A DNA stretch of 64,000 nucleotides from Lachnospiraceae bacterium (lineage in GTDB: Bacteria; Bacillota; Clostridia; Lachnospirales; Lachnospiraceae): positions 1-64,000 of the forward strand of contig JAQXJP010000017.1 in assembly GCA_029008875.1 (NCBI GenBank), written 5' to 3'. Below, piece after piece: positions 986 to 17,614 of the stretch. The notes under the pieces were generated by a model, which did not search any database, was not told the origin of the DNA, and saw nothing but the letters and a program-made list of their open reading frames with translations. A program made the translations under genes and the position numbers. Every line of letters begins with the position of its first letter. The first letter of the stretch is position 1.

Positions 986-1672
986 ATGGAGAACAAGTTG
1001 AAGAGTATTTTGTTGCTGGAGGATGATGAAAACTTAAACAGAGGCATCTGTCTAAAGCTGAGCAAGGAAGGATACCGTGTGTTTTCCGCATATACCATAT
1101 CAGAGGCCCGGGCTGTGTTTGACAAGGAGAGGATAGACCTTGTCATCAGCGATATTACTTTGCCGGATGGAAGCGGTTTGGATTTCGGAAAAGTGGTGAG
1201 GGAAAAGAGCAATGCGATCTTGATTTATCTGACTGCAATGGACCAGGAGATCGATATTGTAAACGGATATGATACCGGTGCGGACGACTATATCACCAAG
1301 CCCTTTTCGGTAAATATTCTGACATCGAAAGTAAATGCGTTCATGAGAAGACTGGGGAGCGATGAAGAGGGTGTGTATCTTTCCGGGGATATTGAATTGC
1401 ATGTACATGATATGCAGGTGAAAAAAGCCGGAGCACTCATCCCATTAAGCAAGACTGAGCTGCAGCTTTTGATTTTTCTCCTTGAAAATGCGGGACATAT
1501 CCTCTCCAAGGAAAGTATACTCGAAAAGGTATGGGGACTGGATGGGCAGTTTGTGGATGACAACACGGTAACCGTAAATATCAGCCGCCTCAAGAGCAAG
1601 CTGGGAACAGACAGTATAGAAAATGTAAGGGGACTTGGATACTTATGGACAGAAAAGGTAAACAAAAAATAG
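986..1672 (+). CDS. OmpR-family response regulator (VncR/BceR-like)
   Basis: 228 aa. The receiver domain occupies residues 7-120 with acidic pocket E12-D13-D14, phospho-acceptor D56 in 'LVISDITLP' and the conserved lysine in 'YITKPF'. The C-terminal half is a winged helix of the OmpR/PhoB type ('TVNISRLKSKLG...RGLGYLW'). It overlaps the sensor kinase by 28 bp, indicating translational coupling. A perfect TnACA-N4-TGTAA box, the site known for BceR-like regulators, sits after the kinase and before the next ABC operon (2822-2835), so that operon is a likely target. Ribosome site is weak, consistent with coupling to the upstream permease. Confidence 0.9.
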   Translation: MENKLKSILLLEDDENLNRGICLKLSKEGYRVFSAYTISEARAVFDKERIDLVISDITLPDGSGLDFGKVVREKSNAILIYLTAMDQEIDIVNGYDTGADDYITKPFSVNILTSKVNAFMRRLGSDEEGVYLSGDIELHVHDMQVKKAGALIPLSKTELQLLIFLLENAGHILSKESILEKVWGLDGQFVDDNTVTVNISRLKSKLGTDSIENVRGLGYLWTEKVNKK

Positions 1673-2835
1673 GCTTCCTGTGCTTTGTTTTTGTTGCCGC
1701 AGCTCTGACGGCGATCACATTCTGGGGCAAAATTGCGTATGAGCAAAAAATGGGGGACGACCAGAAGCAGGAATTGGCAATGATTTATCCGGAGCTGGCG
1801 GAGGAATTAGGTGAAAACATCTCCTACTATGTGGAGAAGAACCTTCAAACAGATTTCCTGGTCATGTCGGTTGCGGTGCTTTTGATGATAACGGCACTGT
1901 TGGGCGCTTACTTTTTGTTGACATCCGCAAGCAAACATCGAATGGCGGAAGCACAAAACGAACTGAGGGATATCTATGAACAGTTGCTTTTGCTTCAGAA
2001 CGGAAACGTGGAGCTTCTTCCGGCCCCGGGGGAGGAGCGCTCACAAAAATATGCAGATGTGTGCGACAAAATAAGAGAATTGGGGTACTATTTTTCCAAT
2101 CTGAAGGATCGGTTGTCGCAGGAGGAAAACAGTACAAAAGCATTGATTACCGATATTTCCCATCAGCTGAAGACACCGCTGGCTTCCATAAAGATGAGCC
2201 ATGAGCTGTCGCTTTCCTCCGATTTGTCTGAGGAGGAAAGGCAGTCATTCGTGGAAACGGAAACGCGGGAAATTCTCAAGATGGAGGCGCTGCTGGATGA
2301 ACTGGTGAAGCTTTCCCGCCTTGAAAACAGCATGATTCAGATTAAGTGTGAAAAGTGTAGCATCAAGAGGACAATCAGCGAAGCAGTAAGTCAGATATAT
2401 CTGAAAGCAAACGCCAAAAATATAGAAATATCCGTGGACATGGAACAGGATGTGGAGACTCTGCACGATCATAAGTGGACGGTGGAAGCTCTGGCAAATA
2501 TCCTCGAGAATGCAGTCAAGTATTCTCCGGAACAGACGACCGTGAGTATTTTGGTCAGTTGTCTGGTCAATCATGTGCTGATTCAAGTTGAGGATGAAGG
2601 AATCGGCATTCCGGAGGGGGAATTGCATGAGGTATTCAAACGCTTTTACCGGGGGAGCAATGCGAAGGATGCGGTAAAGGAGGGGGCAGGCGTAGGACTG
2701 TACCTCGCGAGAAGTATTATCGAGCAGCAAGGTGGCTCCATTGTCGCGAAAAGAAAAAATGGGAGTGGGACAATCTTTCAGATTATGCTTCCGTTGACGG
2801 ACTCGGATGAAGAGGAAACCCTTACAAAAATGTAA
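1645..2835 (+). CDS. Sensor histidine kinase of the upstream regulator (VncS-like)
   Basis: 396 aa. Two membrane segments (about residues 9-27 and 71-93) enclose a ~43-residue outside loop, followed by a HAMP-like linker, the phospho-acceptor box 'DISHQLKTPLASIKMS' with H173, and an HATPase domain (N box 'ILENAVKYSP', G boxes 'DEGIGIPEG' and 'GAGVGLYLA'). The start at 1645 lies inside the regulator gene, but no later in-frame start would keep TM1. The short outside loop suggests a peptide or membrane-stress signal, possibly perceived together with a transporter; this last point is inference. Confidence 0.9.
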   Translation: MDRKGKQKIGFLCFVFVAAALTAITFWGKIAYEQKMGDDQKQELAMIYPELAEELGENISYYVEKNLQTDFLVMSVAVLLMITALLGAYFLLTSASKHRMAEAQNELRDIYEQLLLLQNGNVELLPAPGEERSQKYADVCDKIRELGYYFSNLKDRLSQEENSTKALITDISHQLKTPLASIKMSHELSLSSDLSEEERQSFVETETREILKMEALLDELVKLSRLENSMIQIKCEKCSIKRTISEAVSQIYLKANAKNIEISVDMEQDVETLHDHKWTVEALANILENAVKYSPEQTTVSILVSCLVNHVLIQVEDEGIGIPEGELHEVFKRFYRGSNAKDAVKEGAGVGLYLARSIIEQQGGSIVAKRKNGSGTIFQIMLPLTDSDEEETLTKM

Positions 2836-2853
2836 TCGTTTTTGTAAGGGTTT
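2816..2853 (+). promoter_or_regulatory. BceR-type operator and inverted repeat before the MacB-like operon
   Basis: Positions 2822-2835 read TTACA-AAAA-TGTAA, an exact match to the TnACA-N4-TGTAA box known for BceR-like regulators. The box is part of a larger 15-bp inverted repeat (2816-2830 against 2839-2853, 8-nt loop) that overlaps the end of the kinase gene. Another TTTGTAA half-site follows at 2852. A plausible -10 (TAGGAT, 2870) is placed downstream. The hairpin could also act as a weak terminator of the kinase transcript. Confidence 0.65.
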
Positions 2854-2910
2854 TGTAATGTCCGGGAGATAGGATGGGAACAGAAAGGATGCATAAGGGA
2901 GGAAATGATG

Positions 2911-3585
2911 ATGAGTGAAATTGTAAAGATATCGGATTTGGTAAAGTATTATCATGTGGGCGAAACGGTTGTGAAAGCAGTCGATCACACGGACCTGGCG
3001 ATCGAGAGGGGAAAATTCACAGCGATTGTCGGCCGCTCCGGCTCCGGGAAGTCTACCCTGCTTCAGATTATGGGAGGTTTGGACCGGCCGGATTCGGGGG
3101 AAGTCATCATAGACGGAAAAAATCTGTTTGAACTGAAAGGAAATCAGCTGGCTGTTTTTCGACGGAAAAAGATTGGTTTTATCTTCCAGGACTATAATCT
3201 GATTCCGTCTCTGAATGTATGGGAAAACGTGGTTCTGCCAATGGGGCTTGATGGAAGAAAAGTAAAGAAAGAGGACGTGATGAACATACTGGAACAGATT
3301 GGAATTGCAGATAAGCGGGAGGCGATGCCCAACACCCTGTCCGGGGGACAGAAGCAGAGAGTTGCCATAGCGAGAGCCCTGGCAAGCTCGCCGGCAATTA
3401 TTCTGGCGGATGAGCCCACGGGAAACCTGGATTCCAAGACGGAACTGGAAGTGATGGCCCTGTTGAAAAAATGTGTGAAGGATTTTCATCAGACCCTGGT
3501 TATGATTACCCACGATGAGACGATTGCCCAAATGGCAGATGTTGTGATTGTAATCGAAGACGGTAAGGTGGTGAGAAAATCATGA
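2911..3585 (+). CDS. ABC transporter ATP-binding protein (MacB/LolD-like)
   Basis: About 224 aa. All ABC signatures are present: Walker A 'GRSGSGKST', Q-loop 'FIFQDYNLIP', signature 'LSGGQKQR', Walker B 'IILADEPTGNLD' and switch H in 'MITHD'. Three ATG codons lie in a row at 2905, 2908 and 2911; with the AAGGGAGG ribosome site at 2895-2902 the third has the best spacing. It overlaps the next gene by four bases (ATGA). This class powers FtsX-like permeases that export peptides or lipids or resist antimicrobial peptides. Confidence 0.92.
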   Translation: MSEIVKISDLVKYYHVGETVVKAVDHTDLAIERGKFTAIVGRSGSGKSTLLQIMGGLDRPDSGEVIIDGKNLFELKGNQLAVFRRKKIGFIFQDYNLIPSLNVWENVVLPMGLDGRKVKKEDVMNILEQIGIADKREAMPNTLSGGQKQRVAIARALASSPAIILADEPTGNLDSKTELEVMALLKKCVKDFHQTLVMITHDETIAQMADVVIVIEDGKVVRKS

Positions 3586-6035
3586 GAATGGTAGCAAAAA
3601 TTGCCTTATCAAATATGAAATACCATAAAAGTAAGAACATATTAATCGGGATTGCGATTTTTCTCACCACCGTATTGCTGTTTCTCGTTCCTACCATGGG
3701 GATGGACCTGATCAATTGCCAGAAGGCGGCAATCAACGAACTGTATCCTACATGGCATGCACTGTTTCGAAATGTGCCGGAGGATCAGGTGGCGAAACTG
3801 GCGTCCCACCACCTGATAGAAAACTATGGCCTGCGGAGCGATGTGGGATATCTGGCAACGGACGATGCAAAAATTGCAATGATGTATATGGATGCGCAAG
3901 CCGTGGAAATGTATCAGATGGAACTTGCGGAGGGAAGATTGCCGGAAACGGAAAATGAGATAGTAGTTTCGGAAGGAATTCTGGAAGAACTCTCCTTGAC
4001 AGGGGAAATGGGCGATACAGTCACGATTCCGTATCAGGTGTATCGAGATGGAAGCTTGGATTTTATACAGGAAAAGGATTTTGTGATCTGTGGATTGCTC
4101 CCTGATACGGAGACAAATAGGGAGCAAAAGTCTTACACATCGCTGGTATCAAAAGCTTTTTTGCAGGAGGAGATTCCGTCAGACCAGATTGCTTACCGCT
4201 TTTTATTTCAGATTGATACCGGGTACGCAAATAATACGGAGAAGATGGAGCACAGTATCGAGCAGTTGGCAGAAGGGTTTGGTATCGGCGAACAGGATTA
4301 CAGAATCAATGAGGATTATCTGTGGGCCAACTACGTGGATCCCTCCTTCCTGCCAATCATACTTCTTATCATGCTGATTATTATCATGGCAGGGATGATC
4401 ACGATCTACAGCATCTATTATGTCTCTATGGGGGAGCGGATTCAGGAATTCGGAAAAATAAAAGCAATCGGTGCGACCACGGGGCAGCTTCGGAGAATCG
4501 TCTTGCTGGAGGGCTTTTTGGTTGCCGGAGTCGCAGTCCCCCTCGGGCTTTTTGCGGGAACGGTGCTGGCAAAATATGTTTTATTAAGTCTTTTCAAATT
4601 ATATCAAAATGAGAATATGTTGATGTCTGCCATCCAGGAGCTGATTCAAAGAGGCGAAGTGCAGCTGCTTGTTCCGTGGATTTACCTGCTTGCAATCGGT
4701 GTCGCAATGATTACGGTGTTCCTGTCCTTACTTCGACCTATGAGAATTGCTGCGAAGGTTTCCGAGATCGAAGCGATGCGGTACAGAGGGGAGCAAACTG
4801 CGAAGAGGAGCAGAAAAGGGTATTCGGATATTACCGTTCCCCGGCTTGCTGCAATTCATCTTGCAGGCAACAGGAAAAAGAGTCTGATTACCATCTGTTC
4901 CATGGCCGTTACAGGACTGTTTTTCATGCTTGTGGCTACGGTATTGTCATGCGCCGAACCAAGTGAAGCGGCGGACAATTCCATTATGGGAGCGTACCAG
5001 ATTTCCCCGGTAATCGATTTTAACAATAAGGAACATCCGGAGCTGGAGTGGAGTCAGGTACAGAAAAACAACCCGCTTACCGAGGGGCGAAAGGAACAGA
5101 TTTTGCAGATAGAAGGCGTGAATTCCGTAGAATGCTATCCGGGAACTTATGTGGTATCGGATGCCTTTGACGGGGATAGAGAGGGAGTAATCGGAGTCCC
5201 CGAAAGCGGAAGAGAATTGCTGGAAGCCGGAATCATAGAAGGAAATGTGACTTACGAGGAATTAAAGCGTGGGGATAAAGTGATTATTGATAAGAATCTG
5301 CTTTACTGGTACCCCAATCTGAAAATAGGGGACGTGATCGGGGTTGTGTACCGGGACGGAGACAAAAAATGTCAGAAGGATCTGGAGATCGCAGCCATTG
5401 GCGATTATGATTTGGGCTTCACAAGTTTTCATTATCTGATTATGGCGGAGGAGGGGCTCCGATCTCTCAGCGACAATAACCTCAACATGTATTATCGTGT
5501 ATTTGGGGAGAAAAAATACGATGCAGACGTGGAAGCAAAGCTGAAAGCGATGGTCGAAGAGGATGGCAGAATTCAGATGGAAACCTGGAAATCTTATTAT
5601 GATGAGTGGAATTCGGGTATGACTCTGACAAGAAGTGCCTGCTACGCCTTCCTTGGAATACTGGGTGCAATCTGTATTATGAATATGATTAACACCATGA
5701 TTCACAGTGTCCATGTCAGAAAAAAGGAGATCGGTATGCTGCAGGCAGTTGGAATGTCGGACCGCCAGCTCCTGAAAATGCTGCAGCTGGAAGGGCTGTT
5801 TTATACGGCCGGGACGCTTCTTGTCGCAATCGGAGGCGGAAGTGCAGCGGGATATCCTGTTTTCCTGTGGGCAAAGGATCATGGCATGTTTAACATCAGA
5901 TATTACCACTATCCTCTGGCAGCAACCCTGATTATGATTGCCGTGCTTGTGTTTGTCCAGGTAGTCATGGTGTTTGCAATCGGAAAATCCGTCAGGAAGG
6001 ATTCCCTGATTGACAGAATTCGGTTTGAAAATTGA
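3582..6035 (+). CDS. FtsX-family ABC transporter permease
   Basis: 817 aa with duplicated FtsX architecture: TM1 at about residues 20-42, a large extracytoplasmic domain, three TMs near 260-390, then a second copy (TM near 440, outside domain, three TMs in the last 140 residues). 'GKIKAIGATTGQLRRIVLLEG' and 'IGMLQAVGMSDRQLLKMLQLEG' (each about 20 residues) are the two coupling-helix copies that contact the ATPase. Four-base overlap with the ATPase gene. The operon sits directly behind a two-component system and its probable operator, which suggests a stress- or peptide-induced exporter. Confidence 0.88.
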   Translation: MRMVAKIALSNMKYHKSKNILIGIAIFLTTVLLFLVPTMGMDLINCQKAAINELYPTWHALFRNVPEDQVAKLASHHLIENYGLRSDVGYLATDDAKIAMMYMDAQAVEMYQMELAEGRLPETENEIVVSEGILEELSLTGEMGDTVTIPYQVYRDGSLDFIQEKDFVICGLLPDTETNREQKSYTSLVSKAFLQEEIPSDQIAYRFLFQIDTGYANNTEKMEHSIEQLAEGFGIGEQDYRINEDYLWANYVDPSFLPIILLIMLIIIMAGMITIYSIYYVSMGERIQEFGKIKAIGATTGQLRRIVLLEGFLVAGVAVPLGLFAGTVLAKYVLLSLFKLYQNENMLMSAIQELIQRGEVQLLVPWIYLLAIGVAMITVFLSLLRPMRIAAKVSEIEAMRYRGEQTAKRSRKGYSDITVPRLAAIHLAGNRKKSLITICSMAVTGLFFMLVATVLSCAEPSEAADNSIMGAYQISPVIDFNNKEHPELEWSQVQKNNPLTEGRKEQILQIEGVNSVECYPGTYVVSDAFDGDREGVIGVPESGRELLEAGIIEGNVTYEELKRGDKVIIDKNLLYWYPNLKIGDVIGVVYRDGDKKCQKDLEIAAIGDYDLGFTSFHYLIMAEEGLRSLSDNNLNMYYRVFGEKKYDADVEAKLKAMVEEDGRIQMETWKSYYDEWNSGMTLTRSACYAFLGILGAICIMNMINTMIHSVHVRKKEIGMLQAVGMSDRQLLKMLQLEGLFYTAGTLLVAIGGGSAAGYPVFLWAKDHGMFNIRYYHYPLAATLIMIAVLVFVQVVMVFAIGKSVRKDSLIDRIRFEN

Positions 6036-12953: not shown

Positions 12954-14675
12954 ATGGATATCACCGGAAGAAAATTATTTGTGAAAGCAATGGAAGAGGA
13001 AGGCGTGGACACCATTTTCGGATATCCCGGAGGAATGGTTACGGACCTCTTTGACGAACTGTACAAGACGGAGGGCATTGAACTGGTGCTTCCCAGACAT
13101 GAGCAGGGCCTGATCCATGAGGCGGAGGGGTATGCCAGAGCAACCGGCAAGGTTGGCGTGTGCCTTGTGACAAGCGGACCGGGAGCCACCAATATCATTA
13201 CCGGACTGGCGGATGCCCACTACGACAACATTCCGCTGGTGTGCATCACCGGACAGGTGCCCCTGGATTTGATCGGAAACGATGCGTTCCAGGAGGTGGA
13301 TATTGTGGGAATGACCAGAAGCGTCACGAAGTACGGCGTGACCGTGCGGGATCGCGCAGATCTGGGGCGGATCCTGAAGATGGCCTTCTATATCGCAAGA
13401 ACCGGGAAACCGGGACCTGTTCTGGTGGATATCCCCAAGGATATTCAGCTTGCAACCGGCCCTTCCGATTACCCGGCGAAAGTGGATATCCGCGGCTACA
13501 AGATTAACGAGAGCGTTCATGTGGGACAGCTCAAAAAAGCATATAAACTGTTGCGAACCGCCAAGAGGCCTCTGATTCTGGCAGGCGGTGGAATCAACAT
13601 CGCCGGGGCTAACGAGAAATTGTTGAAATTCGTGGAGCTGGAGGATGTTCCGGTGGTCACCACGGTGATGGGCAAGGGTGCCATCCCCACCAAGCATGCG
13701 CTGTACATTGGCAACTGCGGCATGCACGGAAAGTATGCGGCCAATATGGCGGTCAGTGAGTGCGATGTACTTTTCTCCATAGGGACAAGGTTCAACGACC
13801 GCATCACCGGCGATCTGAATGAGTTTGCTCCCAAGGCGAAGATTGTACATATCGATGTGGACACCGCATCCATCTCCAGAAATGTGGTGGTGGATGTCCC
13901 CGTAGTTGCGGATGCCAACGTGGCGTTGGACAAATTGCTGGAGTGGGCTGAACCGAAGAAGACCACGGCGTGGAAGAATCAGATTACCATCTGGGAGAAT
14001 GAGAATCCCCTTGGAATGCGCAGGGATCGTGGCATGACTCCCCAGATGATTATGGAGCACATCAACAACAACTTCCCCCACGCCATCTATGTGACGGATG
14101 TGGGACAGCATCAGATGTGGGCAACTCAGTATCTGGAGTTGGATGAGGGCAGCAAGCTGATCACCTCCGGAGGATTGGGAACCATGGGATTTGGACTTCC
14201 GGCTGCTATCGGAGCCAAAATCGGACGCCCTGAGAAGAACGTGGTATGCATCTCCGGGGATGGAGGACTCCAGATGAATATTCAGGAGCTTGCTACAGCC
14301 ATCACCCAGGGGACGGACATCACCATCTGCGTGCTGAATAATTACTATCTGGGAATGGTTCGCCAGATGCAGCAGTTGTTCTATGGAAAGCGGTACAGTG
14401 CCACCTGTCTGCGCAAGAGAAAGGATTGCCCGAGGGATTGTAAGGGCCCCAACAAGAACTGCCCGCCCTACTCCCCGGATTTTGTAAAGCTGGTGGAGAG
14501 CTACGGTGGCGTGGGAATTCGCGTCGAGCGCGAGGAGGACATCGATGCCGCGTTTGCACAGGCTCGCAACAACAAGGGAGTTCCCACCTTGATTGAGTTT
14601 ATGATCGCTACCGATGAAATCGTGCTTCCCATGGTAAAAAGCGGAACTGCCATGAGCGATATGATATTAAAGTAA
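12954..14675 (+). CDS. ilvB: Acetolactate synthase large subunit
   Basis: 573 aa. N-terminal TPP-binding domain with the catalytic glutamate E50 in 'LPRHEQG', a central domain, and the C-terminal TPP/Mg site 'GDGGLQMNIQELATA...NNYYLG'. It condenses two pyruvates (or pyruvate and 2-oxobutyrate) in valine/leucine/isoleucine synthesis. Residues about 485-503 carry an extra cysteine-rich loop, C-x6-C-x3-C-x6-C, just after 'FYGKRYSAT'. The regulatory subunit gene follows after 13 bp. Ribosome site AAGGAG at 12941-12946. Confidence 0.95.
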   Translation: MDITGRKLFVKAMEEEGVDTIFGYPGGMVTDLFDELYKTEGIELVLPRHEQGLIHEAEGYARATGKVGVCLVTSGPGATNIITGLADAHYDNIPLVCITGQVPLDLIGNDAFQEVDIVGMTRSVTKYGVTVRDRADLGRILKMAFYIARTGKPGPVLVDIPKDIQLATGPSDYPAKVDIRGYKINESVHVGQLKKAYKLLRTAKRPLILAGGGINIAGANEKLLKFVELEDVPVVTTVMGKGAIPTKHALYIGNCGMHGKYAANMAVSECDVLFSIGTRFNDRITGDLNEFAPKAKIVHIDVDTASISRNVVVDVPVVADANVALDKLLEWAEPKKTTAWKNQITIWENENPLGMRRDRGMTPQMIMEHINNNFPHAIYVTDVGQHQMWATQYLELDEGSKLITSGGLGTMGFGLPAAIGAKIGRPEKNVVCISGDGGLQMNIQELATAITQGTDITICVLNNYYLGMVRQMQQLFYGKRYSATCLRKRKDCPRDCKGPNKNCPPYSPDFVKLVESYGGVGIRVEREEDIDAAFAQARNNKGVPTLIEFMIATDEIVLPMVKSGTAMSDMILK

Positions 14676-14688
14676 GGAGGAAAGGCCA

Positions 14689-15195
14689 ATGTCAGAGATG
14701 AAAAACAGATGGATTGCGCTATACGTGGAGAACCAGGTCGGCGTGCTTGCCAAGGTGTCCGGCCTTTTTTCCGGAAAGTCCTATAACCTTCAGTCCCTCA
14801 CGGTTGGGACCACGGAGGACGAGACGGTATCAAGAATGACAATCTGCGTCACCAGCGACGATATTACTTTTGAACAGATTAAGAAGCAGCTCAACCGCAT
14901 GGTGGAAGTCATCAAGGTGATTGACCTGACGGACGTGCCGCTTCACATGAAGGAAATCCTGTTTGCCAAGGTCTCCGGACTGGATGCGGAGAGCCGGGTG
15001 AAGGTGTTTCAGATTGCGGAAGTGTTCAACGTGAAGCCGGTGGACATGAACAACGATAGTGTGATACTGGAGAGTACTTTGACGGAGCACCGAAACAATG
15101 ACTTGATTGCGCTACTGAAGGCGAATTTCAAGCATGTCTCCGTGGTGCGCGGCGGCGCGGTGGCAATTGAGTCCATCAGTACCGGATGCCGATAA
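14689..15195 (+). CDS. ilvN: Acetolactate synthase small (regulatory) subunit
   Basis: 168 aa. An N-terminal ACT domain ('WIALYVENQVGVLAKVSGLFSGKSYNLQSLTV' region, residues 7-38) binds valine for feedback control, and the C-terminal domain ('MKEILFAKV...LTEHRNNDLIALL') matches the IlvN/IlvH second half. It pairs with the large subunit directly upstream (13-bp gap, AAGGAGG ribosome site). No clear terminator follows immediately; the next 524 bp have no gene. Confidence 0.95.
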   Translation: MSEMKNRWIALYVENQVGVLAKVSGLFSGKSYNLQSLTVGTTEDETVSRMTICVTSDDITFEQIKKQLNRMVEVIKVIDLTDVPLHMKEILFAKVSGLDAESRVKVFQIAEVFNVKPVDMNNDSVILESTLTEHRNNDLIALLKANFKHVSVVRGGAVAIESISTGCR

Positions 15196-15303
15196 GAGTC
15201 GGGGAGATGGCGATTGGTATCGAGGATGCCGGTAGATGGCGGATGCGATTGCGATGGCAATCGGTATTGAGGTGAGTGCATACCGGGTACTAATAATGGC
15301 GTT

Positions 15304-15623
15304 TTGGGTATTTTCGCTGAAAAAGTTGATTTACGCCCAAAAAAGAAGAAATATTGACGCAAAAAATGAAGAATTGGGCGTAGGCGCAAAATCATAGGGC
15401 TTTCTGCCCAAAAAACCATGAAAAAGAAGAAAATAATTTGTTTTTTGGGCAGAAACCCGCAAATATAGTATTTGAGCCCAAAAATGAGCGAAAACAAGAA
15501 AAAAGTGTCGTGTATTGGGCGGAAAAATCGTAAAGATGGTGTTTTTGCCCAAAATGGAAGACAAAGGGCGTGATTGCATGAAATATTGGGCGCGATGAAA
15601 CGAGAATGTTCCATCGCGCCCAA
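15304..15623. repeat. Periodic array of alternating TTGGGC and GCCCAA boxes (70-71 bp period)
   Basis: Ten boxes alternate in orientation: TTGGGT 15304, GCCCAA 15335, TTGGGC 15374, GCCCAA 15406, TTGGGC 15445, GCCCAA 15476, TTGGGC 15515, GCCCAA 15547, TTGGGC 15586, GCCCAA 15618. Spacings are 31-32 and 39 bp in strict alternation, giving a 70-71 bp period over about 4.5 units. Flanking bases extend some pairs into longer stems: 9 bp (15332-15340/15374-15382), 16 bp plus three more after a bulge (15401-15416/15440-15455), and 13 bp (15585-15597/15612-15624). Sequence between boxes is diverged and purine-rich on this strand. Confidence 0.85.
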
Positions 15624-15646
15624 TTTGTGTCTCACGGCGTCGAAAT

Positions 15647-15679
15647 GTGTAGGTTATTTCAAAACGTGTAGGTTATTTC
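15647..15679. repeat. Short direct repeat with 19-bp period
   Basis: The 14-mer GTGTAGGTTATTTC is present at 15647-15660 and 15666-15679, both followed by AA or GA. It lies 40 bp past the end of the flavin reductase gene. Function unknown. Confidence 0.7.
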
Positions 15680-15719
15680 GAACCCCATTGCAAACCCTAT
15701 TTTCTAACAACGCTCACAA

Positions 15720-16226
15720 TTATCTTGCCAGGACATCGATAATCTCACCCACATACATGGTGTGCATATCGTTGTCCTTGTACCATTTGCTCATGAGATC
15801 CTTGTCGATGAAGGTGTCCTCTGTGATGGGTACAGCGGCCATCTTGCGGCAGAGGATTACGAGATTGGCCTCATCCGGATAGGGGATACTGTGGCGGAAT
15901 GCGGGGGTAAGTCCGGCTTCCGCAAATTTGTCTTTGTCCCGCCCGGAATTGGCGCCACAGTAATTCAACGCAGGGCGGTATTCTTCGCTGAAAAACGACA
16001 GGGAGAAAAAGTCTCCGGAATCAATCAGTTCCTTGGTGTAGCGGGACTGGCGAATGAAAATGTAGGTTACATTTTTCCCCCACAAAACGCCTACGCCACC
16101 CCAGCTCACGGTCATGGTATTAAATTTGGACTTGTTACCGGCGGTGACAAGAGCCCACTCTTTTCCGATCTTCGTAAATGGATTCATCTCTACTAGGTCA
16201 ATTGGGTATGGTTGAAATGTATGCAT
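15720..16226 (-). CDS. Flavin reductase family protein
   Basis: 168 aa. 'FNTMTVSWGGVGVLWGKNV' and 'YTKELIDSGDFFSLSFFSEE' are typical of the flavin-reductase-like FMN-binding split-barrel family. Such proteins bind FMN and reduce flavins or small substrates; the physiological partner is not evident. The gene stands alone on the minus strand. Ribosome site AAGGGATGAT precedes the ATG at 16226. Confidence 0.85.
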   Translation of the reverse strand: MHTFQPYPIDLVEMNPFTKIGKEWALVTAGNKSKFNTMTVSWGGVGVLWGKNVTYIFIRQSRYTKELIDSGDFFSLSFFSEEYRPALNYCGANSGRDKDKFAEAGLTPAFRHSIPYPDEANLVILCRKMAAVPITEDTFIDKDLMSKWYKDNDMHTMYVGEIIDVLAR

Positions 16227-16292
16227 ACGATCATCCCTTCTTTCTTCTTTTTATCATACGTACTAATTTCCCATATTATACCAAAGAATGAT

Positions 16293-16312
16293 AAAAAGAG
16301 AAACCTCTTTTT
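16293..16312. other. Small hairpin in divergent gap
   Basis: AAAAAGAG and CTCTTTTT pair over 8 bp with loop AAAC, 28 bp before the peptidoglycan-binding gene. It could end spurious transcripts or lie in the leader of that gene. Confidence 0.35.
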
Positions 16313-16351
16313 GGAAAGGGCATAGAATAAAAAAAAACTGTGGATTTTTTT

Positions 16352-17614
16352 ATGACAGACATGCTTCGTGCACAACAGAATAATGTAGATGTGGGAAGAC
16401 TGCGTATGAACGTCATCGGGAGATCGGAAGGTACACCGATTCCGGATGCCAGCATCAGCCTCTCTTATTCCGGAAATCCAACAGAGACCATCGAGGAATT
16501 GAAAACGGATGAATCCGGAAATACGGAGGAGGTGGCCGTTGCCACACCTCCTTTGGAATATTCCATGGAACCGAGTGGCAGACAGCCTTTTTCGCAATTC
16601 ACCATCAACGTCACGGCGGAAGGATATCGCCCAATCAATATATCGGGGATTGAGGTCCTTCCTACCGAGTTGTCCGTTCAGAATGTGGAAATGGTGACAA
16701 TCGATTCGCCGGGGAATCCGGTGGACAATATCGTGATTCCGGAAAGTACGCTCTTTGGTAATTTCCCGCCAAAAATTCCGGAGGATGAGGTGAAACCCAT
16801 GGCGGAAACGGGAGAGATTGTACTTAATAGGGTGGTAATCCCGGAGTACGTCGTGGTCCATGACGGACCGCCGGGGGATAATACTGTCGCGAATTACTAT
16901 GTGAGATATCGGGACTACATCAAAAATGTGGGCTCCAGCGAGATTTATGCCACATGGTCGGATGCTACCATTCGGGCAAACATTCTGGCAATCATGTCCT
17001 TCACCATGAACCGGGTGTTTACGGAATGGTACCGAGGCCAGGGGAAGAATTTTACCATAACCTCCTCCACGGCATACGATCATGCCTTCAGTTTCGGGAG
17101 AACCATCTATAAGACCATCTCGGATGTGGTGGACAGTATGTTTGAAAACTATCTGTCCCGGCCCAACATTCAACAGCCCATTCTGACCCAGTATTGTGAT
17201 GGGGAGAGGGTGACCTGCCCCAACTGGATGACCCAGTGGGGATCAAAGTTTTTGGGGGACCAGGGGTACAGTGCCATTGAGATTCTGCGGTACTTTTATG
17301 GAAGCGACATGTACATCAACACTGCGGAGTCTATTGCCGGAATTCCGGCTTCATGGCCGGGATACAACCTCACTCTCGGAGCCACCGGGGCCAAGGTGCG
17401 GCAGATGCAGGAACAGTTGGCACGCATATCCAAATCTTATCCGGCAATTCCCACGGTCACACCGGATGGTATCTACGGGCCCAAGACCCAGGAGGCTGTA
17501 AAGAAATTTCAACAGGTATTCGGACTTCCGCAAACAGGCATAATCGACTATAATACTTGGTATAAGATTTCTGCAATCTACGTGGCGGTGACCCGTATCG
17601 CCGAGCTCATGTAG
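16352..17614 (+). CDS. SpoIID-like protein with C-terminal peptidoglycan-binding domain
   Basis: About 420 aa. N-terminal ~110 residues look like a carboxypeptidase-regulatory/transthyretin-like beta domain ('RLRMNVIGRSEGTPIPDASI'). Residues ~180-330 contain 'YYVRYRDYIKNVGSSEIYATWSDATIRANILA', similar to the SpoIID/LytB amidase-enhancer fold. The last ~75 residues are a peptidoglycan-binding type 1 domain ('LGATGAKVRQMQEQL...DGIYGPKTQEAVKKFQ'). There is no signal peptide. Start is uncertain: GTG at 16340, ATG at 16352 or 16361; the only purine-rich site (GGAAAGGG, 16313-16320) is far upstream. A spore-cortex role is inference. Confidence 0.7.
   Translation: MTDMLRAQQNNVDVGRLRMNVIGRSEGTPIPDASISLSYSGNPTETIEELKTDESGNTEEVAVATPPLEYSMEPSGRQPFSQFTINVTAEGYRPINISGIEVLPTELSVQNVEMVTIDSPGNPVDNIVIPESTLFGNFPPKIPEDEVKPMAETGEIVLNRVVIPEYVVVHDGPPGDNTVANYYVRYRDYIKNVGSSEIYATWSDATIRANILAIMSFTMNRVFTEWYRGQGKNFTITSSTAYDHAFSFGRTIYKTISDVVDSMFENYLSRPNIQQPILTQYCDGERVTCPNWMTQWGSKFLGDQGYSAIEILRYFYGSDMYINTAESIAGIPASWPGYNLTLGATGAKVRQMQEQLARISKSYPAIPTVTPDGIYGPKTQEAVKKFQQVFGLPQTGIIDYNTWYKISAIYVAVTRIAELM

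Follow-up and report, generated by a model that had tools for sequence, protein, structure and literature searches.

A dispersed family of helix-phased box arrays with a probable nuclease-like partner in Lachnospirales

Repeats of the REP/BIME type carry a GTAG or CGTC tag at one end, and together with their RAYT partners they are likely, by analogy, to be the known system that the arrays described here resemble most in the way they work. REP tags are mentioned in the available part of PMC3733652, and the available text of PMC2817692 describes palindromes preserved by compensatory changes, inter-REP segments that vary substantially in length, and an enzyme gene that stands beside some copies and co-evolves with them, several specificities per genome being possible. 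As far as that text allows the comparison, the arrays are likewise dispersed, intergenic and of alternating orientation, with a partner gene beside some of them and with co-variation of repeat and protein. However, the partner here is nuclease-like and not an HUH transposase; among the Pfam matches listed for 54 partner proteins (25 of 30 families) there is no Y1 transposase, and each listed family matches at most 3 of the 54. The arms show no compensatory change (0 of 31 units are changed in both arms), and the dyads are phased by whole helical turns, whereas inter-REP lengths are variable in the available text of PMC2817692. As both the enzyme and the hairpin tests of a REP/BIME-RAYT system failed, the arrays are not filed there.

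The TAACTGA repeats of Beggiatoaceae (PMC4679880) are, like the boxes here, short, conserved and present in many intergenic sets, but they are described as direct repeats and the available part of that paper mentions no partner nuclease, while the arrays here consist of inverted dyads. The candidate defence proteins PDC-S68, PDC-S69 and HEAT_CxxC_PDDEXK (PADLOC) have a C-terminal nuclease domain in common with the partner family; the PDC-S68 profiles, however, span 1202-1273 positions and are matched at their C-terminal end alone, whereas the proteins here have about 240-300 aa and adjoining arrays.

The stretch analysed (the window) comprises 64,000 nucleotides of a Lachnospiraceae genome, and its array occupies the gap between two convergent genes, ilvN and a flavin reductase gene (Table 1). 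Re-reading of the sequence upheld all ten box positions given in the initial annotation; nine of the boxes are exact copies of TTGGGC/GCCCAA, but the first differs in its last base. The strict alternation claimed there (31/32 and 39 bp) was also borne out, the successive box-to-box distances being 31, 39, 32, 39, 31, 39, 32, 39 and 32 bp, which is far beyond chance, and extensions of neighbouring boxes into longer stems were found (19 nt at 95% and 17 nt at 94%). Measured by a box-agnostic statistic, the greatest number of exact 6-mer dyads (arms 28-36 bp apart) in one chain, the gap scores 4, while 1999 of 2000 dinucleotide shuffles of it score 0 and the other one scores 1; 120 other 524-bp slices of the window all score 0. 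The window is not enriched in TTGGGC itself (31 observed, 47 expected), so the signal lies in the order of the boxes. Shuffles, window slices and genome-wide pattern counts together rule out a chance origin. A search for plasmid copies of the locus found none. Directly after the array, at 15640-15679, there are two copies of a 19-bp direct repeat of another kind, about 90% alike.

Table 1. Coordinates of the array, its neighbours and the partner gene copies of the same genome (periods in bp)
Feature	Position	Strand	Boxes	Spacing or remark
Dyad 1	15304..15340		TTGGGT 15304-15309 + GCCCAA 15335-15340	arms 31 bp apart
Dyad 2	15374..15411		TTGGGC 15374-15379 + GCCCAA 15406-15411	arms 32 bp apart
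Dyad 3	15445..15481		TTGGGC 15445-15450 + GCCCAA 15476-15481	arms 31 bp apart
Dyad 4	15515..15552		TTGGGC 15515-15520 + GCCCAA 15547-15552	arms 32 bp apart
Dyad 5	15586..15623		TTGGGC 15586-15591 + GCCCAA 15618-15623	arms 32 bp apart
Whole array	15304..15623		five dyads	periods 70, 71, 70, 71
ilvN, acetolactate synthase small subunit	14689..15195	+		left neighbour, by sequence match; context only
Flavin reductase domain protein	15720..16226	-		right neighbour, by sequence match; context only
Partner gene copy on C7	C7:12672-13397		TTGGGC	period 71; other contig, outside the window
Partner gene copy on C18			CGGGGTA	period 52
Partner gene copy on C38			GTCCGTC	period 73-74

Together with this array, the genome (G000) has at least seven TTGGGC arrays, comprising 31 dyads in all. 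Their spacing is not at chance level: the three-box pattern has 22 matches and its reversed form none, and the length is 37-38 bp for 17 of the 20 TTGGGC-N12..42-GCCCAA sites. The arms lie 32 bp apart in 28 of the 31 dyads and 31 bp apart in the other 3, and the periods are 70-73 bp in 21 of 24 steps and 81-82 bp in 3. When the 31 units are aligned, the box columns are 77-100% conserved while surrounding columns reach 29-74%. In the arrays on C9 and C35, spacer sequence is still common to neighbouring units, which indicates that units duplicate in tandem and then diverge. A decaying tandem repeat kept at its palindromes, as the initial annotation had proposed, is thus half right: the units do multiply in tandem, but the array is not just a relic, since the same spacing rule with unrelated boxes in other genomes points to an architecture. 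The arrays of this genome are flanked by ordinary genes; around them the ORF calls are mechanical, and the gene orientation at C30 is uncertain.

TTGGGC is not a widely fixed motif. Within the genus 3 of 36 genomes match, including this one, and 0 of 24 genomes from other families of the order; a four-box scan with one genome per species found 12 stretches, spread over six genomes: three MAGs labelled Lachnospiraceae/Eubacterium, one 'bacterium' (S3R_St_47) and two Actinomycetes. Counts of TTGGGY dyads with 18-34 bp gaps, as matches/control, are 34/3 for G000, 9/2 for G011, 9/3 for G017, 167/7 for G060, 26/0 for G061, 26/11 for G062, 27/15 for G063, 68/0 for G064 and 11/4 for G065. Across 392 genomes of the order TTGGGY dyads are numerous in two alone, this genome (29 vs 0) and G176 (31 vs 1), followed by G158 (12 vs 4), G178 (9 vs 0) and G306 (9 vs 1). 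Among the matches listed for G064, many dyads are paired 193-195 bp apart and form the ends of a four-dyad element that reads as about 71-52-71; several copies with near-identical arms occur on different contigs.

Relatives of the partner gene occur in all 8 non-actinomycete array genomes searched; no partner gene was found in G062, G063 or G286 (P0001, the product of the C7 copy, against whole genomes), nor near the actinomycete arrays (A1 profile against the ORFs of nine loci). The actinomycete arrays, in Aquihabitans (G062) and the MAG G063, have TTTGGGTC boxes in common and periods of 71-77 bp. Dispersed dyads in both (G062 loci L061, L070 and L121-L124; G063 locus L062) carry a longer box, GAACTTTGGGTC, with arm spacing that varies (32, 34, 35) and a gap of 39, once 43; in both genomes, complementarity between the two arms of a unit is lower than for random arms. 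These arrays are possibly convergent with those of Lachnospirales and hence are set aside. G286 has 56 matches to AACCCR-N25..27-YGGGTT, the reversed control pattern, which may reflect a further dispersed dyad family that has no partner gene.

An array directly follows the same gene in three genomes (the C7 copy here, L063 and L141). For a wider comparison, 40 gene loci were taken from the listed matches in rough order with their arrays unseen, skipping contig-start copies and later rows, and 30 control regions (L239-L268) were placed 20 kb away on the same contigs, 10 gene loci having no matched control. Exact box-agnostic chains of at least three dyads occur at 20/40 gene loci and 1/30 controls (Fisher 1.3e-5). 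With one mismatch allowed, in a search that read positions 1501-5300 of each locus and was tallied by hand, arrays are present at 31/40 and 3/30 (Fisher 1.1e-8). The three control arrays look genuine, and one (G199, TACTACC) shares its box with a gene-linked array in that genome. Exact chains at other arm spacings also favour gene loci (16/40 vs 2/30 at 20-28 bp, 6 vs 0 at 12-20 bp, 7 vs 0 at 36-44 bp and 8 vs 1 at 44-52 bp), as expected from shifted registers and opposite pairing. Further gene loci, which include some gene fragments and contig ends, have arrays in 18/28 (three of them doubtful: L185, L189, L190) and 14/29 cases, so that gene loci lacking an array number 9/40 in the one-mismatch search and 10/28 and 15/29 in the further sets. 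The linked arrays lie at most 749 bp away, 5' of the gene in 22 of 31 cases and 3' of it in 9 of 31, and their boxes are diverse in sequence. Two very long arrays of about 20 dyads with a 51-bp period occur at L120 (2820-4020, G060:C13) and L159; their nearly uniform spacers imply that tandem amplification was recent there. At L047 (3400-3580, G000:C7) the partner gene and its array are separated by a second, degenerate repeat with variants of AATCAGTCCCTTGGCGGTTGGCGCTTTG.

Every copy of the gene goes with a box of its own. In the genome studied, all three copies are array-linked, each with a different box (Table 1), and one TTGGGC array adjoins the C7 copy. GGGGYA dyads number 41 here (control 2), 38 of them in seven dispersed arrays, of which one adjoins the C18 copy; the genes flanking these arrays are co-directional in 6/7 and convergent in 1/7. 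Beyond the array of the C38 copy, at L270, a short tandem repeat of another kind is present (CTTATGCGATAAAGAACATCCCC). Where the linked arrays of paralogues in one genome were compared, the boxes differed in 12 of 12 genomes. Box similarity correlates with protein similarity over 61 arrays (Mantel r 0.384, 0/2000 permutations), also among protein pairs below 50% identity (r 0.184, 1803 of 1830 pairs, 0/2000 permutations). In a joint regression on 56 arrays, leaving out L189, L190, L209, L218 and L222, box similarity has its largest coefficient for residues 5-52 (0.161, p 0.002), followed by residues 53-107 (0.111, p 0.016) and the nuclease part (0.097, p 0.047). This is suggestive of a role for the N-terminal part, which may be the reading head for the box.

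Of the 392 genomes of the order, 84 have the partner gene, often with more than one copy (at least seven at the highest). Among 398 genomes sampled from the phylum, 13 match, namely this one, four others of its family and eight outside the family, in which the C-terminal part of the protein alone matches. P0001 has 242 aa, and members of the family, about 240-300 aa long, consist of a variable N-terminal part and a nuclease-like domain. P0001 has no match in NCBIfam, and its single match in Pfam is a sub-threshold coiled-coil. Among 54 aligned members the PADLOC profiles PDC-S68, PDC-S69 and HEAT_CxxC_PDDEXK match 54, 46 and 45, and the best HEAT_CxxC_PDDEXK match (E 3.8e-9) establishes a sequence relation to the PD-(D/E)XK superfamily, so the family is predicted to be nuclease-like. 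Residues W108, R134, S135, K136, E138, Y154, E155, D168, E183, H184, G186, Y193 and E220 are invariant in this alignment. The putative catalytic residues include D168 and E183, which supply the acidic pair D...E of PD-(D/E)XK. An ExK lysine is not apparent, as conservation there takes the form E183-H184-x-G186, and K200, conserved at 90% or more, could serve. Searches of Pfam and PDB with the N-terminal part gave nothing consistent; the best PDB match, a carbon-nitrogen hydrolase (E 0.0035), is disbelieved. Plasmid relatives of the nuclease domain are annotated as AAA ATPases or as UvrD or RecQ helicases. On nine viral contigs (L279-L287) the same domain ends ORFs of 723-1136 aa, the domain alone being related, and other searches of viral contigs gave no relative. 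The phage record MT839528.1, an unannotated 4.2-kb record from human faeces, contains a relative at 380-1021 that covers 92% of P0001 at 29.5% identity.

Dyad-to-dyad distances (38 values from 31 arrays) fall into classes of 43, 51-54, 61-64, 72-75 and 83.5-85 bp. They fit a period of 10.55 bp best; with 10.5 bp, R is 0.885 and the phase 0.13 bp, a phasing reached by 0 of 20000 jittered sets. Excluded from this set are the duplicates L218, L222 and L240 as well as all distances from 95 bp upwards (101-108); two control-region arrays are included. A second set of 44 values from 32 arrays, without distances of 100 bp or more and with the doubtful L185, L189 and L190 kept, is noisier, with a best period of 10.4 bp and R 0.66 (0/2000). 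From both sets the rule is 'about a whole number of turns' between dyads; at 70-73 bp, the periods of the TTGGGC arrays are a little less than seven turns of 10.5 bp. Judged by eye, the gaps between dyads in non-actinomycete genomes are mostly 19-21, 29-30, 38-41, 50-51 and 60 bp, and the 17-bp gaps of G176 are off the whole-turn rule.

Given this evidence, the array probably represents five bipartite sites of a dispersed repeat family whose cognate partner is a PD-(D/E)XK-like nuclease. The half-site would be TTGGGY, with arms about three and dyads about seven helical turns apart, and the partner in this genome would be the gene copy on C7. Dimers of the protein could occupy one dyad after another along one face of the DNA, and dyad spacing would change by whole turns because the dimers assemble cooperatively on that face. 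Cleavage by the nuclease may drive multiplication and spread of the arrays in trans, with array copies as the template for the repair of breaks, as has been suggested for RAYTs and REPs, and the gene may in addition be controlled by arrays 5' of it. A protein-binding array was among the readings of the initial annotation, and it is supported by boxes that are kept while spacers have diverged, by whole-turn spacing, by box-protein co-variation and by the lack of compensatory arm change. The broader proposal is a tentative one, which we put forward as possible: that these systems form a new repeat-enzyme class, a diversified family of small nucleases in which every member would recognise a particular box, about 6-8 bp long, in the form of bipartite, helix-phased dyads, assemble on one side of the helix, regulate the gene that encodes it and spread copies of its arrays over the chromosome.

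The same protein might instead serve the host, as a domesticated chromosome-organising or regulatory factor whose host use keeps the arrays, any spread being ancient or incidental. The conservation of boxes amid diverged spacers in this genome would fit, as would the ordinary genes that adjoin arrays and the operator-like position of most linked arrays, 5' of the gene. We consider this unlikely, though not negligible, because many co-resident copies with different boxes look like spread, as do the patchy presence in the order and the near-identical dispersed copies in G064; moreover, the invariance of the acidic residues suggests that cutting matters.

It is improbable that another protein, such as gyrase or an IHF-like factor, binds the arrays and that the nuclease gene is merely a frequent neighbour. 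BIME-2 arrays do bind gyrase, according to the available part of PMC2817692, and whole-turn spacing fits any protein that contacts one face; however, box and nuclease co-vary even below 50% identity, and paralogues of one genome have different boxes, which would not be so with a general host protein.

That the arrays act as hairpins, either as the multi-hairpin RNA proposed in the initial annotation or as cruciforms cut by a junction-type nuclease, is quite improbable in spite of good folding. The window array, with its strongest hairpin at dyad 5, folds far better than shuffles on both strands (z -6.2 and -8.2), and when the boxes are preserved in the shuffles, z reaches -2 or below in 18 of the 28 strand tests on 14 arrays of this genome. 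These folds are attributed to a symmetric consensus that runs beyond the six box bases. Weak matches to PHROG Holliday junction resolvases (17 of 54 members) and one to T7 endonuclease I (E 0.6) would suit a cruciform cutter. The arms themselves, however, argue against hairpins. Among the 31 TTGGGC units, 17 are fully complementary and 14 have one changed arm, and arm complementarity within units or between neighbours is no better than for random arms (31 and 38 units of this genome; p values 0.80, 0.60, 0.65 and 0.78, 0.43, 0.998), in agreement with an earlier partial test on 17, 28, 20 and 16 units that found no excess. With no compensatory change in the arms, a hairpin RNA is disfavoured, and an RNA does not need whole-turn spacing. 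A structured RNA family is rejected on the same ground and because no Rfam model scores above its gathering score in 14000-17000 of the window; a role as intrinsic terminator is rejected because 15100-15800 holds no stem followed by a T run.

It is hardly credible that the arrays are a common REP/BIME system with a RAYT transposase (HUH/Y1) as its driver. The overall logic is the same, inverted boxes dispersed between genes together with a partner gene that co-varies, but the recurrent partner gene matches nuclease-domain profiles and, among the Pfam families listed, no Y1 transposase, and the compensatory changes reported for REPs in the available text of PMC2817692 are absent from these arrays.

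Set beside the systems named at the outset, the phased arrays with their nuclease-like partner differ in enzyme, site architecture and phasing, while their logic is REP-like; no published description of such an array-nuclease system was found in the open PMC literature. If the reading of the arrays as sites of a cognate nuclease is true, they would be a second, independent solution to the task of REP and RAYT, built on a different enzyme. The system is common in one order of Clostridia and has no Pfam or NCBIfam name. The whole-turn rule makes its mechanism directly testable, and dozens of box-protein pairs provide a ready set for learning how such proteins read DNA. The several orthogonal pairs in a single Lachnospirales genome would then amount to a natural catalogue of protein-DNA codes.
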